Assembly (NCBI GenBank): GCA_009838195.1
Contig: VXSC01000047.1
Coordinates: 124,001 to 188,000 of the forward strand
DNA: 64,000 nt
DNA from: Rhodothermaceae bacterium
GTDB taxonomy: Bacteria; Bacteroidota; Rhodothermia; Rhodothermales; Bin80
Direction of reading: 5' to 3'
In this document: positions 31,805-40,701 of the stretch, one piece after another
How positions within the stretch are numbered: the stretch's first letter is position 1
Layout: each line of letters begins with the position of its first letter
Translations under genes and position numbers: made by a program
The notes under the pieces: model-generated
The model's input: only the letters and a program-made list of their open reading frames with translations
Database searches by the model: none
What the model was told of the DNA's origin: nothing

Positions 31805-33610
31805 ATGAGACATGTCATTGCATGCTTGATTCTCGGAGTGGCCCTGGCCTCGGGAGGATGCGCGCAGGTCGCACCGCCTCCAAAATACGAGACGCGAGGA
31901 GCGTGGATCGCGACCGTGATCAATTTGGACTGGCCTGCGCGGGGCGCATCCAGTCAAAGCCAGATAAACGCGCTGCGGACCATGTTGGTCAAGCTCAAGG
32001 CTGCGGGCATTAACATGGTGATGTTTCAGGTCCGGTCTGAAGCAGATGCGATGTACGATTCGCCGTACGAGCCGTGGTCATACTGGCTGACAGGGTCACA
32101 AGGGAGAGCACCGGATCCATTCTATGATCCATTGGAGCTAGCCATTGAAGAAGCACATGCTTTGGGCATGGAGTTGCATGCGTGGTTCAATCCGTACCGG
32201 GCCAACCGGGGCTCGAACTACACGACGCACGCCAGCCATGTGACAAATACGCACCCGGAGTGGATGATTCACGCGGGGCGGTATACCTTGCTCGATCCCG
32301 GCAGACAGGCGGTTCGGGACTACAACGTGTCCATCATCATGGACGTAGCCCGGCGCTATGATGTGGATGGGGTGCATATCGACGACTATTTCTACCCGTA
32401 CCCGCCGGATAATATTTCGCGGACGAACGCTGACTCGGTGACATTCCGGGAGGAGAGTCGCGGCTTCACCAACATCGGCGACTGGCGGCGCGACAACGTC
32501 AACCTGTATATCCAGCAGGTAGCTGACAGTCTGCGGGCCTACGATCCCACTATCAAATGGGGCGTGAGTCCCTTTGGGATTTGGAGGAACGGAACGCCGT
32601 CGGGCATAGTCGGGCTTGACGCGTACAGCACCATCTATGCCGACGCGACCGCCTGGATTGACGATGCGTCGATCGATTACCTGGTCCCCCAGCTGTATTG
32701 GCGGTTCGGTGGCGGGCAAGATTATGCCAGACTGGCCGAATGGTGGATCAGCCAGATTGGCGACCTCCATCTGTATACTGGACACGGCCTGTATCGGGCT
32801 GACCGCAGCACATTCAGTGGCAGTGGACGGTTCAGTGCGGAGGAGGTGCCGAATCAGATTAACTTCAATCGAGACCACTGGGGGGCAATTTGGGGGAGCG
32901 TGTTTTTTCGTGCCGAAAACATCACTCGCTACTCCTCTGGGAATTTCGTAGAGCAGGTTCAGAACGACCAGTTCCGTTACCCGGCACTCACGCCGCCGAT
33001 GCCGTGGAAGGATCAGACCATGCCGGAAGCTCCGACTCACCTGGACGTGTCTTGGGACGGCGATCAGGCTACATTGACTTGGGTAGCTGATCCGGATACG
33101 CCGCGCTTTGCAGTGTACCGTGTGCTAAGCGCTACGACGCCTGATCCGAGCGTGGTGGCGCGGGATGCACGCAATCTTCTGGGCGTGACCGGCAGAATGA
33201 CATTCGTAGACCGGCCTGGCATTGCCCAGGATGATTGGTGGTATTTCGTGCGGGGCGTCAGCAAGAATTCGATTGAGAGTGCTCCCAGCCCTCTGATCAG
33301 CTTACAGGGCCGGGCCACCAGTGTCGAATCCCAGCCCATACCAGAAGGACCGGCGTTGTCCATCTATCCGACACCGTTTGCGGACCAAACCCGAATTGCT
33401 TTCACTCTGAACGAGGCCGCTACAGTCACCGTGCATATTATCGATGCCTTGGGCCGTAGCGTACAAAAACTGATACGGGACCGGTCGCTGGCCCCGGGTT
33501 CACACGAGGCAATCTGGACTGCTGGGGAACGGTTGGCTGACGGGGTGTATTTCGTGGTGCTAGACGTGGATGGGCGGCGGATTTCTTCGCCCGTATTACT
33601 CGCACACTAA
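31805..33610 (+). CDS. secreted GHL10/DUF187 glycoside hydrolase with T9SS sorting domain
   Basis: This 601-residue protein has a signal peptide with a possible weak lipobox (ALASGGC). A GHL10-type TIM barrel (DUF187, the YngK/DigH family) occupies about residues 30-400, seen in ETRGAWIATVINLDWPA, the NMVMFQVRSEADAMY strand, FNPYR and VDGVHIDDYFYPYP. A fibronectin type III-like domain follows (~410-500). The tail YPTPFADQTRIAF through ADGVYFVVLDVDG to LLAH fits a type A T9SS C-terminal sorting domain. DigH relatives cleave peptide-free peptidoglycan glycans. The T9SS tail implies surface export, so an external glycan is equally possible. Codon use looks GC-richer than the carotenoid genes. 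Confidence 0.87.
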   Translation: MRHVIACLILGVALASGGCAQVAPPPKYETRGAWIATVINLDWPARGASSQSQINALRTMLVKLKAAGINMVMFQVRSEADAMYDSPYEPWSYWLTGSQGRAPDPFYDPLELAIEEAHALGMELHAWFNPYRANRGSNYTTHASHVTNTHPEWMIHAGRYTLLDPGRQAVRDYNVSIIMDVARRYDVDGVHIDDYFYPYPPDNISRTNADSVTFREESRGFTNIGDWRRDNVNLYIQQVADSLRAYDPTIKWGVSPFGIWRNGTPSGIVGLDAYSTIYADATAWIDDASIDYLVPQLYWRFGGGQDYARLAEWWISQIGDLHLYTGHGLYRADRSTFSGSGRFSAEEVPNQINFNRDHWGAIWGSVFFRAENITRYSSGNFVEQVQNDQFRYPALTPPMPWKDQTMPEAPTHLDVSWDGDQATLTWVADPDTPRFAVYRVLSATTPDPSVVARDARNLLGVTGRMTFVDRPGIAQDDWWYFVRGVSKNSIESAPSPLISLQGRATSVESQPIPEGPALSIYPTPFADQTRIAFTLNEAATVTVHIIDALGRSVQKLIRDRSLAPGSHEAIWTAGERLADGVYFVVLDVDGRRISSPVLLAH

Positions 33611-35179: not shown

Positions 35180-36352
35180 TTGTTGACCCGTAACCGCTAC
35201 CTGCTGCATGCCGGGCTATTTGTCGTAACGCTTCTCTCCACCGCCCTTACCGGCGCAGTGGTATTCATTGGTCGGAGCGTAGCCTGGGAAGCAGGAGATG
35301 CTGTGCTGAATATTGGCGGAATCCCATTTACTACGGCATTTCTGGCCGACGCATTTACGTTTGGTGGAGCACTGATCGCTTTTTTGACCATCCATGAATT
35401 TGGTCATTATATTGCCGGTCGGCTCCACCGTGTTAAAACCTCGCTCCCCTATTTTATCCCATCTCCCCTGATCGGGATTGGCACGCTTGGGGCTGTCATC
35501 AGTATCCGCGAACCGATCCCGAACCTGACAAAACTCTTTGATATTGGTGCTGCGGGGCCGATTGCCGGGTTTGTGATGGTCTTGATCCTTCTGGTCTGGG
35601 CAATGGCAACCTTGCCCTCCCCTGAGTATATGTTTGGCGTTGGAGGGCATGAACCGCTACTCGACTATATTCGAGCGACTGGAAAATTTCCAGAGACTCC
35701 AATTTCTGACGCTCCTTCAGGGGGGCGACTGACTCTGGGAGCAACCCCGCTGTACTGGGCACTTACACAGGTATTCCCAAATGTGCCTCCACTGTACGAA
35801 ATGTACCACTATCCCCTCTTGTTTGCGGCTTGGCTGGGACTTTTTTTTACAGCACTTAACCTGATGCCCGTCGGCCAATTGGACGGAGGCCATATCGTCT
35901 ATGCACTCTTCGGACCGAAATGGCATGCCCGAATCTCCCGTACATTCATTTTCATGATGCTCTCGTCCATGGCTGTGGGAGCTGCATTGGTGCTTCCCGG
36001 CATGCTCATTACCATGACTGGAAGTGAGCAGATCGGAAAAATCTTACTCTGGTTCATTCTCGGCGCATTTTTGGCGCTCTGTACACGTCGAGTATTCGGG
36101 GAACGGTGGTGGCTGATGACACTGACGATTCTCGTGCTTGCCTCCTTTGCATCGGCGGTGCCGGATGCGTTGAACTGGTTTGGGTACTTTGGCTGGTTCC
36201 CGTGGTGCCTGCTGTTGATCTTTGTGGTGAAGGTAGACCATCCGCCTGTTCCACTGTCCCATCCCCTCACAAACCGACGGCGGCTGATCGGCTATTTCAC
36301 TCTGGCCATCTTTATTCTGTGTTTCAGTATCAAACCTCTTTACAGTGTATAA
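35180..36352 (+). CDS. site-2 protease family (M50) membrane metalloprotease
   Basis: The 390-residue polytopic membrane protein starts at TTG (35180). It has the zinc-binding HEFGH motif (His72, Glu73, His76) in a transmembrane segment and the third ligand region NLMPVGQLDGGHIVYALFG. PYFIPSPLIGIGTLGAV is also typical of the group. This is the M50 family without an inserted PDZ domain, similar to the Sll0528/FtsH-associated type. Such enzymes cut transmembrane substrates such as anti-sigma factors or signal peptide remnants. No sigma/anti-sigma gene is adjacent; 8 bases downstream begins a lipoprotein gene of a T9SS-linked operon. Confidence 0.9.
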   Translation: MLTRNRYLLHAGLFVVTLLSTALTGAVVFIGRSVAWEAGDAVLNIGGIPFTTAFLADAFTFGGALIAFLTIHEFGHYIAGRLHRVKTSLPYFIPSPLIGIGTLGAVISIREPIPNLTKLFDIGAAGPIAGFVMVLILLVWAMATLPSPEYMFGVGGHEPLLDYIRATGKFPETPISDAPSGGRLTLGATPLYWALTQVFPNVPPLYEMYHYPLLFAAWLGLFFTALNLMPVGQLDGGHIVYALFGPKWHARISRTFIFMMLSSMAVGAALVLPGMLITMTGSEQIGKILLWFILGAFLALCTRRVFGERWWLMTLTILVLASFASAVPDALNWFGYFGWFPWCLLLIFVVKVDHPPVPLSHPLTNRRRLIGYFTLAIFILCFSIKPLYSV

Positions 36353-36360
36353 GCGTTACC

Positions 36361-37194
36361 TTGACACGCTCACATCAACTTATTTTTCTCCTGTTCATCG
36401 CCTACGTGGCTGCATGTGACTCTGTACCAGATTCACTCCTGGAGACTTCTGAGCGACTTCCACAGATCACAGGATTTTCGATCACACCCCAACGTGTTGA
36501 TTTCGCCTTCCTGGATCAATCCACTATTGAGGGAGATAGCGTGCACATCTCGCTTGACATGATGGTTGAAGTCGTGTCGCCAGGAAGCCCGGTAGCGCAG
36601 GTTTCTTATGCAATCCTATCTACAGACACGACCGGGGTCCCGCTCCGCACCGGCAGCCTGTCTTCGAAAGGAGATGGCATTCATACTGGTCGCGCAAATA
36701 TAACCTTGAGCGCACTGGATGTAGAGAGTTACCCTGTCCTTGTCTATGCTATCGATGCGAATAATCGCCTCGGTGGTGAAGCCAGAACCGCGTTAGAATA
36801 TGTACGCACCTTTGAGCCTAGCTTTCCCCCGGTCATCGAAGAGCTGATCATTCCTGAACGAATTCAGCGGCCAGCTGCTGGTGAGCCTGCCCAAAGCCTG
36901 ATCTTCATTGCAGAAGTCTCCGATCCAGACGGACTTAATAATGTGAGAACCGTGGAGTTTTGGAATGAGTCTGATCCTGGTACCCGATACCCGCTATGCG
37001 ACGACGGGAATCTGAGCCCCTGTGGGTCAAGTATTGAAAGTGGGGATGCGGAGGCCGGAGATGGCCTATATACACGTACCGTTTTTATTCTGAGTTCAAA
37101 TAGTCTTGGTTTTAACACTTTCATATTTGAAGCAATTGATCGCGCTGGGCTGCGTAGTCAACAGGTCAGTCATACAGTGGAGATCTACGAATGA
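36361..37194 (+). CDS. lipoprotein with Ig-like domains, unknown
   Basis: I choose the TTG at 36361 as start, 8 bases after the protease stop. It gives a good lipoprotein signal (MTRSHQLIFLLFIAYVAAC) and 277 residues. A longer frame upstream would overlap the protease gene by nearly 250 bases. The mature part looks like two Ig- or cadherin-like beta domains, the second containing FIAEVSDPDGLNNVRTVEFW and a C-terminal FEAIDRAGLRSQQ. No enzyme motif is seen. It overlaps the propeller gene by 4 bases, so it probably belongs functionally with the propeller and the PorV-like barrels, perhaps as a surface or periplasmic accessory lipoprotein. Confidence 0.78.
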   Translation: MTRSHQLIFLLFIAYVAACDSVPDSLLETSERLPQITGFSITPQRVDFAFLDQSTIEGDSVHISLDMMVEVVSPGSPVAQVSYAILSTDTTGVPLRTGSLSSKGDGIHTGRANITLSALDVESYPVLVYAIDANNRLGGEARTALEYVRTFEPSFPPVIEELIIPERIQRPAAGEPAQSLIFIAEVSDPDGLNNVRTVEFWNESDPGTRYPLCDDGNLSPCGSSIESGDAEAGDGLYTRTVFILSSNSLGFNTFIFEAIDRAGLRSQQVSHTVEIYE

Positions 37195-38780
37195 TATCTC
37201 GTGCACTTCTCGGGATTCTGGTGACCCTTGTTGCTCCGCTACAAGCGCAAGACTTGGTACTTTCCCCTGGAATTCTCTCTAACAATATTACGAACCTTGC
37301 CGCGGCAGGTCCCTCAATCTGGGTAGGACCCTATCTGAATGTATCGCATGACGGAGGAGAAACGTGGCAGGCTGTCAATGCCGAACCATTTCAAGATTTT
37401 TCAAACTCCGTCTATTCACTGGCGATCAGTGGCCAATCTATCTGGGCAGGTGTGGGGAATCAATACACACGAAGAGATGGTGAGGGGCGATTGCAGAGAA
37501 TCAACGAAATCACTGGAATCCTGCATTCTCCCGATGGCGGAGATACATGGAATTACTGGCTTCCTGCACCACCGGTAGACGATGATCCGGTGACTACCGG
37601 ACTACTTGATAACCCGGACGATTCACAGATCACCTACGGAACCGTTACGCTCACCACCTTGCCCATTACCGTTCCGGCACAGGTCGCGCCATGGGATTTA
37701 GATTTTGATCCTGGCACCGAGACTCTCTGGATCGCGGGACAACTCTCGGGACTTCGTCGCAGTCCCGATTTGGGACGAACCTGGGAGCGTGTTGTACTCC
37801 CTCCAGATACGACCTCCTACCTTGGACCGGAATTAGGATATGATTTCCCGTTCACGGTGCAACCGGTAGGAATTGCGGTTAGTATGTTTCATGGCCTCAA
37901 CTTTCAGGCCTATGCTGTACTGGTTGACGAAACCGGTACGATCTGGGCAGGAACTGCCGGCGGTCTCAACCGCTCAGAAGACGGAGGCACGAGTTGGTAC
38001 CACTACACGACAGACGACGGTATGCTCGGAAACTGGATTATTTCCATTGAAGAGCAGCCCCGCGGAACACAGCCTCCGGCGATCTGGATGACGAACTGGC
38101 CGGGGCGGGGAAGAGGCCAGGGCCACGGAATAGCTGTTACCCGTGACCAGGGTGCCACTTTCCAAACCGCTCTGCACGGCGAAGAGTGCTCCGACTTTGC
38201 GTTTGATGGCCCACGAGTCTACGTTGCCTGTGAACGAGGATTATACCAGTCCCGGGATGATGGAATCACGTTTTTCTTCAATAATGAATTCATTGACCGT
38301 GAAGATCCGGTACGGAGTATGCGCCCTGGTGCGCGAGTATATGCCGTTGAAGTAACGGACGATGCGGTTTGGGTTTCGTCACAGGACGGACTGTTTAAGA
38401 GTACGGATCAAGGAAATTCCTGGAGAATTTTTCGAACAGAAGTCCCACTCGACCCAACCAGTCTTCCAGCAATCATTCCAGAAGGTCGGGTGCCAAAGGT
38501 ATCAACCTACGCTTATCCAAACCCGTTTTCACCGTCTACGGATCGCTTGGTCCGCCTGCGCTATGATTTGGATCAATCGCAGACGGTGACTATCCGGATC
38601 TTTGATTTCAGTATGACCCTTGTCCGAGAGATCTCCTCTGCAACCGGTTCTGCCGGAGCAAATGAAGTGGCCTGGGACGGTACAGATGATCAAGGGGTAC
38701 GACTGGCGAATGGCCCCTATTTCTATGCCATTCAGGCACAGCAGGGTACGTTCTGGGGCAAAATCTTGATCGCCGAGTAG
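37191..38780 (+). CDS. secreted Asp-box beta-propeller with T9SS/FlgD-like C-terminal domain
   Basis: The 529-residue protein has a signal peptide (MISRALLGILVTLVAPLQA). It carries about seven Asp-box/BNR-like repeats: SHDGGETW, SPDGGDTW, SPDLGRTW, SEDGGTSW, TRDQGATF, SRDDGITF and STDQGNSW, as in sialidase- or two-component-regulator-type propellers. The last ~90 residues (AYPNPFSPSTDRLVRLRY to GPYFYAIQAQQG and ILIAE) form a FlgD-like Ig/T9SS sorting domain. It is therefore a predicted T9SS cargo exposed on the surface or released. No catalytic sialidase residues are evident, so binding or scaffolding is as likely as catalysis. It is followed 2 bases later by a PorV-like barrel gene. Confidence 0.85.
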   Translation: MISRALLGILVTLVAPLQAQDLVLSPGILSNNITNLAAAGPSIWVGPYLNVSHDGGETWQAVNAEPFQDFSNSVYSLAISGQSIWAGVGNQYTRRDGEGRLQRINEITGILHSPDGGDTWNYWLPAPPVDDDPVTTGLLDNPDDSQITYGTVTLTTLPITVPAQVAPWDLDFDPGTETLWIAGQLSGLRRSPDLGRTWERVVLPPDTTSYLGPELGYDFPFTVQPVGIAVSMFHGLNFQAYAVLVDETGTIWAGTAGGLNRSEDGGTSWYHYTTDDGMLGNWIISIEEQPRGTQPPAIWMTNWPGRGRGQGHGIAVTRDQGATFQTALHGEECSDFAFDGPRVYVACERGLYQSRDDGITFFFNNEFIDREDPVRSMRPGARVYAVEVTDDAVWVSSQDGLFKSTDQGNSWRIFRTEVPLDPTSLPAIIPEGRVPKVSTYAYPNPFSPSTDRLVRLRYDLDQSQTVTIRIFDFSMTLVREISSATGSAGANEVAWDGTDDQGVRLANGPYFYAIQAQQGTFWGKILIAE

Positions 38781-38782
38781 AG

Positions 38783-39790
38783 ATGAGACACTCCTTGTAC
38801 TTGTGTCTTCTACTGCTTTTGCCCGGCGTAGCCATGGCCCAGACTGCTGGACAGATTGGTCGCATGGGATTTGGGGGTCGGGGAATTGCCGTCGGGAATG
38901 CCCTGGCTGGAGACGCATCTGGTTTCGCCAGCCCATTTTATAACCCCGCACTTGCCCCCTATATCAAGAATCAGAGCCTTGGTCTCAGTGCAGCACTGAT
39001 GACCCAGGATCGCCAACTGCAGTTCGTGGAACTCCAGACCCCTCTCAGGCCATTAGCGGGTATTGCTGCTGGACTCATCCATACGGGGGTCCAGGATATT
39101 GACCAACGCAACTCAAGTGGCTATCATATCAGTATGGTCTCAACAAATGAGTTTGCCTTTTTTGCTGCCTTCGGAGTGCGTGTGGGCAGCAAAGCATCAA
39201 TCGGTGTGGGGTTACAACTATTTCGGAACGACTTACATAGTGACCTGCCAGCTGTCCAAACTTTTGGCCTCGATATTGGCATAGGGGTTCATGTTCTTCC
39301 TTCTTTACACATCGGTTTGGTCTTGGACGACCTCCTCGCAAAGTACAGTTGGGATACAATCAATCAGGATGGGGCTGGAGTGACTGATAAATTCCCGACG
39401 CGCCTGCGCGTCGGAGCATCCTGGGTCCTTCTGGAAGAGCGGCTGCAACTTCTTGCCGAGTACGAATCAAGCTTTTCTGTACGACAAATCCGGGAATCCA
39501 GTGTTATCTTCACGGGCAGGGCGCCAAGGGAAACCTTCGAGACGCGTGAGCTTACCCTTCATCAAAGCCATTTTCGCGTGGGTGCAGAATATACTCTGGT
39601 CCCCCAGTTCGTCATTCGCGCCGGGATGGGACGAATGGAAGAATTCTCAAGTGGTGGCCCACGCCCCAGTGCAGGATTTATGGTTGAGCAGCCCCTAGGG
39701 CTCCTGGTTACACAGGTTGCGTATACCGCTGTACTAGAGCCGTATGCCCTAGGCACAATGCATCTTATTACCCTGCGATTTTTTCTGTGA
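38783..39790 (+). CDS. PorV/PorQ-like outer-membrane barrel, divergent
   Basis: This 335-residue protein has a signal peptide (MRHSLYLCLLLLLPGVAMA). Its N-terminal motif GRGIAVGNALAGDASGFASP followed by FYNPALAPY corresponds to the GMGGAxxAxxxDxxAxYWNPAGLA motif of PorV/PorQ and UPF0164 proteins. The rest is a FadL-like barrel with strands every 10-12 residues, closing with LITLRFFL. PorV is the shuttle barrel of T9SS that presents cargo to the sortase. This copy is divergent and sits beside a T9SS cargo gene and a second PorV-like gene, so cargo-specific shuttling is a reasonable inference. It overlaps the next gene by 4 bases (GTGA). Confidence 0.8.
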   Translation: MRHSLYLCLLLLLPGVAMAQTAGQIGRMGFGGRGIAVGNALAGDASGFASPFYNPALAPYIKNQSLGLSAALMTQDRQLQFVELQTPLRPLAGIAAGLIHTGVQDIDQRNSSGYHISMVSTNEFAFFAAFGVRVGSKASIGVGLQLFRNDLHSDLPAVQTFGLDIGIGVHVLPSLHIGLVLDDLLAKYSWDTINQDGAGVTDKFPTRLRVGASWVLLEERLQLLAEYESSFSVRQIRESSVIFTGRAPRETFETRELTLHQSHFRVGAEYTLVPQFVIRAGMGRMEEFSSGGPRPSAGFMVEQPLGLLVTQVAYTAVLEPYALGTMHLITLRFFL

Positions 39791-40701
39791 GCATGCGCAT
39801 ACTTGTAGTCCTAGGACTGACCTTACTGGCTGCTCCCGCTATGGGACAGGGGACTGGTCTGAGTTTTCTGCGGATCGGGGTCAATGCACATGCAGGTTCA
39901 ATGGGCGATGCACAAGTATCAAATGTTCGTAATGCCTTCGCAACCTACTGGAATCCAGCTGGATTAGCAGGAGGGAGCAATTCCGCGGCTGGATCTCATC
40001 GCCTATGGATCGGGGACGTCAGGGTCTATGATGTTGCCGCCCAGCTTCCAATCGGCCCCAACAGTGCGTGGGGCTTGGCATTGACTGCTACAGATAGTGG
40101 TGATCTGGAGGCACGAACTCAACCAGGAGAACCAGATGGCCTCTTCGGTGCCCAGTTTATTAGTGCTGGAGTGAGCTATGCACGCGTCCTAAGTGGACTA
40201 CGAGTAGGGATGACCGCCAAATATCTCCGTGAGCGGATATTTGATACGAGTGCGTCAGGGTATGCAGTAGATTTTGGGGTTCAGGCAGATGTTCTTGATG
40301 GACGCCTGAATTTCGGGGCAGGACTCCGTAATCTCGGCCGTATGAGCCCCCTGGAAACGAAACGGACCCCCCTCCCGCGTCTAGTACAAGGAGGCATTGC
40401 CCTGTCACCACTGCAAATCATCACCGCATTTGACGAGGCCCGCCTTCTGGACCTGATGATAAGTATTGAAGCTTCTCACCTATTCGATGATCGCCTAACA
40501 CGATTACACCTTGGATGCGGAGTCACAATCATGGAGTTGGTTGACCTGCGTGGTGGCTATATCTCCAACGATGAACTGCGGAGCTACACTTTTGGGATTG
40601 GATTGTTCTTTGACAGCATTGACGCGGATTATGCGTACATTCCCTTTGAGGACGGATTTGATGGCCCTGGACATATGCTGAGCCTTTTGTACTACTGGTA
40701 A
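39787..40701 (+). CDS. PorV/PorQ family outer-membrane barrel
   Basis: This 304-residue protein starts at the overlapping GTG at 39787, or the ATG at 39793. A signal peptide ends APAMGQ. The motif SFLRIGVNAHAGSMGDAQVS, then NAFATYWNPAGLAGG, is the canonical PorV/PorQ opening, and a FadL-like barrel follows, closing with MLSLLYYW. PorV/PorQ proteins handle T9SS cargo at the outer membrane. It is the last gene of the protease-lipoprotein-propeller-barrel-barrel unit and is closer to consensus than its neighbour. No porT, porU, sprA or gldKLMN genes are present in the window. Confidence 0.87.
   Translation: MSMRILVVLGLTLLAAPAMGQGTGLSFLRIGVNAHAGSMGDAQVSNVRNAFATYWNPAGLAGGSNSAAGSHRLWIGDVRVYDVAAQLPIGPNSAWGLALTATDSGDLEARTQPGEPDGLFGAQFISAGVSYARVLSGLRVGMTAKYLRERIFDTSASGYAVDFGVQADVLDGRLNFGAGLRNLGRMSPLETKRTPLPRLVQGGIALSPLQIITAFDEARLLDLMISIEASHLFDDRLTRLHLGCGVTIMELVDLRGGYISNDELRSYTFGIGLFFDSIDADYAYIPFEDGFDGPGHMLSLLYYW

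Follow-up and report, generated by a model that had tools for sequence, protein, structure and literature searches.

The operon analysed here encodes, on the reading that we favour and to which we give a probability of about one half, a second surface complex on the PorQ-PorZ principle, in which an Asp-box propeller and one PorV-like outer-membrane barrel would form the core and a role with a surface glycan is possible. In Porphyromonas gingivalis, PorQ anchors PorZ and PorV anchors PorU at the cell surface (PMC5562754), and PorZ delivers A-LPS (PMC8545088). The operon lies in a 64,000-nucleotide stretch of DNA (the window) from a genome of 3.0 Mb, where five genes on the + strand occupy positions 35180-40701.

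35180..36352, + strand: M50 site-2-type membrane protease, 390 aa, TTG start (PF02163, motifs and hydrophobic segments).
36361..37194, + strand: predicted lipoprotein with two Ig-like domains, 277 aa, TTG start, after an 8-nt gap (lipobox YVAAC, AlphaFold).
37191..38780, + strand: seven-bladed Asp-box propeller with a C-terminal FlgD/T9SS-type Ig domain, predicted to be exported, 529 aa, 4-nt overlap (Asp-boxes, FlgD_ig, AlphaFold).
38783..39790, + strand: barrel 1, divergent PorV/PorQ-like outer-membrane barrel, 335 aa, after a 2-nt gap (profile, tree, co-loss with the propeller).
39787..40701, + strand: barrel 2, PorV-family outer-membrane barrel that is neither PorV nor PorQ, 304 aa, GTG start, 4-nt overlap.

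The tight packing reported in a preliminary description of this DNA was confirmed for all five genes, the successive spacings being +8, -4, +2 and -4 nt. The protease gene is the first of the operon, and an aminotransferase gene ends 69 nt before it. Scans for promoters and terminators gave no excess over shuffles. Two genes upstream, at 31805-33610 of the window, lies a GHL10-type glycosidase gene whose product has a T9SS tail that stays below the threshold (24.2 of 27 bits with Por_Secre_tail). A Gln stands at the predicted signal-peptidase site, or adjacent to it, in the products of the genes starting at 37191, 38783 and 39787 (propeller, barrel 1 and barrel 2), which resembles the Q-rule that its authors restrict to Bacteroidetes (PMC5837995).

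When the five-gene order was searched across relatives, it proved to be conserved far beyond the close ones. Within the window's own order a propeller relative, mostly full-length, was present in 59 of 59 genomes; of 394 genomes sampled from the GTDB phylum, 166 had one by the propeller profile at E <= 1e-30. Among 57 loci of the own order, the neighbourhood held the lipoprotein in 56, barrel 1 in 53, the M50 protease in 48, barrel 2 in 36 and all five genes in 31 (eight families); the corresponding numbers for 24 loci of other classes were 22, 19, 17, 19 and 16 (nine of the 11 families sampled), and 15 loci of other orders of the class (Balneola-type) had the lipoprotein in 12, barrel 1 in 15, the protease in none and barrel 2 in 14, all these counts being minima because contig ends cut some loci. 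Since the protease is present in both outer groups, its loss in the Balneola-type lineage is the simplest history. Bearers include Roseithermus sacchariphilus (L127), Longimonas halophila (L153), Salinibacter altiplanensis (L179) and Melioribacter roseus (G231), as well as Gracilimonas and Balneola MAGs. The operon is usually single-copy across the classes and the order in the tree follows taxonomy; the five-gene unit predates the split of Rhodothermus-type and Ignavibacterium-type bacteria. That the five genes form a unit is well supported. A genome of the window's genus (G002, L122) also has a second, stand-alone propeller copy (51% identity) with the other operon genes absent; one Balneola-type genome (G308, L262) carries a tandem duplication of lipoprotein and propeller followed by one barrel pair; and the gene directly upstream of the propeller looks like ftsZ in some Balneola-type genomes (L180, L185).

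The tie between the members is strongest for the propeller and barrel 1. Seven genomes of two genera (g45 and g47) were without the propeller at E <= 1e-30, and the barrel 1 orthologue was absent from all seven, the best matches being at paralogue level (E about 1e-9 to 1e-10), whereas barrel 1 was found in all seven sister genomes with a propeller (E 1e-80 to 1e-107). The Fisher p for losers versus keepers was 6e-4, and the Fisher values given here are upper claims, as genomes and losses are related by descent; propeller and barrel 1 must have been lost together no fewer than two times. In family f4 and the genome G294, which have a split operon, barrel 1 remains elsewhere in the genome. Barrel 2 behaved otherwise: it was retained in three of the seven propeller losers (G268, G370 and G389; 259-302 bits), and it was at most at paralogue level in five families keeping both propeller and barrel 1 (f3, f10, f13, f14 and f16). 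The co-loss, together with this different behaviour of barrel 2, indicates that propeller and barrel 1 are very probably one functional unit. The other members are accessory, in descending order of evidence barrel 2, the lipoprotein and the protease. The lipoprotein was not detected in the g45 and g47 operons and is dispensable, being missing in some Balneola-type operons, and the protease is an old but dispensable member.

Barrel 2 had been called a canonical PorV/PorQ barrel in the preliminary description; its family assignment stood, with 131.6 bits to PorV_fam (NF033709, cut-off 90), but it is neither PorV (NF033710, 47.0 of 250 bits) nor PorQ (NF033711, 68.7 of 220 bits). Barrel 1 is, as had been said, a divergent relative, with 76.5 bits to the same family model. 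Barrel 2 alone matched PorV (6h3i, E 8.5e-4), and the barrel 1 profile matched PorV with E 5e-5 and the FadL-family channel TbuX slightly better, with E 8e-6. In a tree built from 121 barrels, barrel 2 formed one group (support 99) and barrel 1 with its rearranged homologues another (support 100); both groups were distinct from PorV, PorQ, PorV2 and the cargo-paired paralogues, yet stood beside PorV, PorQ and PorV2, which argues against the other origin considered at the outset, a FadL/UPF0164 branch unrelated to PorV. The tree has a midpoint root, and the support that joins barrel 1 to PorV2 (NCBIfam NF052325), its closest sampled neighbour, is 89 only; a PorV2-like protein is also encoded separately in the same genome (C18, 269.9 of 325 bits), whereas barrel 1 scores just 27 bits. 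Each barrel is a separate ancient clade next to PorV, PorQ and PorV2, and since branching within the groups broadly tracks taxonomy, vertical descent of both is favoured.

The same genome encodes, over the respective cut-offs, SprA (1676 bits), PorZ (387.7 bits, C36), PorU (970.5 bits), PorV (299.7 bits) and PorQ (222.4 bits), the authentic PorU and PorV being encoded together (L189). Because these bona fide components lie elsewhere in the genome, the barrels and the propeller are none of them, and the idea that the barrels are the PorV or PorQ of this genome was ruled out. Six further PorV-family barrels of this genome each lie directly 3′ of a large gene (L190-L195; contigs C8, C42, C47, C11, C47 and C19); several of these large genes end in CTD-like tails, and several of the pairs stand behind a TonB-dependent receptor. 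The general expectation that PorV-like barrels are not dedicated to a single cargo therefore fails here. Barrel-cargo pairing is common in this genome, and the operon is distinguished by its age and fixed membership, not by pairing. The receptor, surface protein and barrel cassettes resemble a SusCD-like layout, and a 466-aa FadL/BamG-like barrel (L193:4676-6073; 66.8 bits to BamG) adjoins a PorV-like barrel in the same genome.

These results bear on the module idea of the preliminary description, by which the operon would be a dedicated export module, both barrels serving as private shuttles for one cargo in the manner of SprF-type cognate shuttles and the protease serving quality control. 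A tight operon in which two PorV-like barrels adjoin one cargo fits this idea, as do the six other pairs in the genome, and type B substrates have cognate shuttles that are often encoded directly downstream (PMC12618676). However, barrel 2 is lost and kept independently of the propeller, so that only barrel 1 is coupled to it, the operon lacks the protease in 15 of 15 Balneola-type loci, and for type A cargo the genome has a canonical PorV. We consider such a module unlikely. What is retained of the idea is a conserved module joining a T9SS-type propeller to a PorV-like barrel, while the equal coupling of both barrels and the protease as a core member are given up. Barrel 1 as a private shuttle may overlap with the PorQ-PorZ-like explanation that we prefer.

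The propeller contains exactly seven Asp-boxes, while 20,000 shuffles of its residues had 0.014 on average and never more than 2, and its AlphaFold model (509 residues) is a single seven-bladed propeller (mean pLDDT 88.9, pTM 0.88); the C-terminal Ig domain spans about residues 440-529. This domain exceeds the cut-off of FlgD_ig (PF13860; 48.3 bits, cut-off 27), and the T9SS tail models stay under theirs (TIGR04183, 15.3 of 23 bits; PF18962, 14.2 of 27 bits). The curated CTD cut-offs do not place the propeller among the type A cargo of the T9SS, whereas its strictly terminal domain and the translocon in the genome fit such a cargo. The scores leave room for an ordinary Ig domain in a protein that is not a T9SS substrate and for a module that is periplasmic, to which we assign very little probability. 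The domain is strictly terminal, YPNPF standing 81-94 residues before the C-terminus in 81 of 82 sequences; a search with its profile recovers the CTD of PorU (E 4.8e-5), and the partner of the propeller is a PorV-type barrel. SprA was moreover found in every bearer tested (56 of 56, versus 14 of 20 non-bearers), and the operon was absent from all six tested genomes without SprA. T9SS export of the propeller is likely on this evidence. Some genomes that lost the propeller still have SprA, so the operon is not required for the T9SS itself.

With the propeller model, the first match in Foldseek was PorZ (5m11, E 4.7e-14). In VIA-align the top rows, with Z about 25, belonged to GH74 and further seven-bladed propellers, PorZ being absent among the best 50 rows listed. 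The structural likeness of the model to PorZ is partly that of the common propeller fold. PorZ itself has two propellers and a CTD, whereas the operon protein has one seven-bladed propeller, and its assignment as PorZ (NF052228) was rejected, the score being 29.8 of 260 bits in the CTD region only and the authentic PorZ being encoded elsewhere.

Profiles, AlphaFold models and shuffles bore out the initial account of an M50 protease without PDZ domain, an Ig-like lipoprotein and a propeller of seven Asp-boxes with a FlgD_ig C-terminus. The protease scores 65.8 bits with PF02163 (cut-off 27.2) and carries HEFGH at residue 72 and LDGG at 234 (NLMPVGQLDGG); among 65 orthologues, HExGH is kept in 63 and NxxPxxxLDG in 61. 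The profile search gave no PDZ match, and identity with RseP (TIGR00054) was rejected, at 23.2 bits against a cut-off of 147.55 and with the PDZ domain absent. The second protein gave no family match in the profile search. It is predicted to be a lipoprotein by a signal sequence and a lipobox Cys (YVAAC, by inspection), the mature protein starting from Cys19, which is invariant in 29 orthologues; Asp at +2 is nearly invariant. The count of acidic residues after the Cys, taken as a signal for surface lipoproteins, was uninformative (just 23 of 90). The AlphaFold model has two Ig-like sandwiches (mean pLDDT 93, pTM 0.59). Sequence matches of its profile to solved structures were at chance level, and the fold gave generic Ig/FnIII-like matches only, the best being RbmA of the biofilm matrix with a poor whole-chain superposition. 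The fold was dropped as a functional clue.

A FadL-superfamily barrel, an Ig-like lipoprotein and a propeller are also the parts of the extracellular BamG-BamH-BamI dome of Bacteroidota (PMC12578637), where Ig and propeller partners of a FadL-type barrel lie outside the membrane (PMC12578637, PMC12611786), and the operon could be conceived as its counterpart, an outer part of the BAM machine. Against this, the genome has a BamG candidate elsewhere with a near-full score (C19, 248.1 bits, cut-off 250), and the two barrels belong to a different family, scoring as PorV family with no match to the BamG model (NF053685). The BamI propeller is a six-bladed lipoprotein, unlike the seven-bladed CTD protein of the operon, and some viable genomes have lost the entire operon core, while an essential role has been described for BamG. 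A counterpart of the dome is therefore highly improbable.

A connection with glycans is suggested by gene neighbourhoods. Glycosyltransferases of families GT2, GT1 and GT9 lie within about 7 kb of 17 of 19 other-class loci and of 8 of 40 control stretches (Fisher p 4e-7), the controls coming mostly from the same genomes as the loci and the p-value being computed without removing relatedness. FemAB-like and DUF1207 genes recur at the other-class loci (L235-L249, L265-L269) and occur in none of the controls, and GT1 is found at 9 of 14 Balneola-type loci. In the window's own order, glycosyltransferases are near the operon in just 4 of 56 loci. With a context that is strong in distant classes and almost nil in the own order, the glycan link is a lead from distant relatives, and a glycan role of the propeller complex is a tentative proposal.

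A different use of glycans would be that of a nutrient cassette, in which the propeller binds or cleaves a surface glycan and the barrels serve uptake or anchoring, as in the genome's loci of TonB receptor, cargo and PorV-like barrel. The genome has many loci of this kind, the profile and fold matches of Asp-box propellers include GH74 and sialidases, and the GHL10 glycosidase with its T9SS-like tail lies two genes upstream. Yet the operon has no adjacent TonB receptor, GH74 enzymes have two propellers and the operon protein one, and conservation across classes, usually in single copy, is unlike that of variable nutrient loci. We regard the nutrient cassette as distinctly unlikely.

For the preferred reading, a second surface complex on the PorQ-PorZ principle, the following course can be proposed. 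The propeller would be made with a Sec signal peptide, cross the outer membrane through the SprA translocon via its C-terminal domain, and be kept on the cell surface by barrel 1, which would bind that domain in the manner of PorQ-PorZ and PorV-PorU. The Ig-like lipoprotein would sit at the same membrane and assist or extend the complex, and barrel 2, related but separable, would perhaps be the shuttle or offer another docking site. A surface glycan, for example lipopolysaccharide or another surface polysaccharide, may be what the propeller handles. The PorQ-PorZ-like arrangement of propeller and barrel 1 is somewhat more likely than not, and more probable than the glycan role.

Several known systems share parts of this design. 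As in PorQ-PorZ (PMC5562754, PMC8545088), a propeller with a terminal T9SS-type Ig domain is coupled to a PorV/PorQ-family barrel, and there is a link to surface glycan genes, for the operon in distant lineages; unlike that pair, the operon adds a lipoprotein, a second barrel and a protease to its one propeller. PorU-PorV likewise combines a surface CTD protein with a PorV-family barrel encoded alongside, an arrangement predicted here from the genes, but the operon propeller has no peptidase domain. In Flavobacterium johnsoniae, type B cargo also stands beside its own PorP/SprF shuttle (PMC12618676), with another CTD type and another barrel family than in the operon.

Work on the T9SS has centred on Bacteroidia, for example Porphyromonas and Flavobacterium. 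A literature search, with subscription papers and preprints outside its scope, found no description of the five-gene set. It is conceivable, as a bolder and more doubtful proposal, that the operon specifies a previously undescribed surface-assembly complex, parallel to PorU/V/Q/Z in the same cell and dating back to the ancestor of the Ignavibacteria-Rhodothermota side of the Bacteroidota group; its T9SS-exported propeller would be locked to its own PorV-like barrel and would handle a surface glycan. The gene set is conserved like core machinery in other classes; its clades are clear, its core pair is defined, and its bearers include cultured, non-pathogenic bacteria. A propeller with its own outer-membrane barrel, if so, would put a known anchoring principle to use a second time. 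If confirmed, it would mean that PorV-type barrels, as they diversified, became partners dedicated to individual surface proteins, and it would offer a testable entry to surface building in these bacteria.
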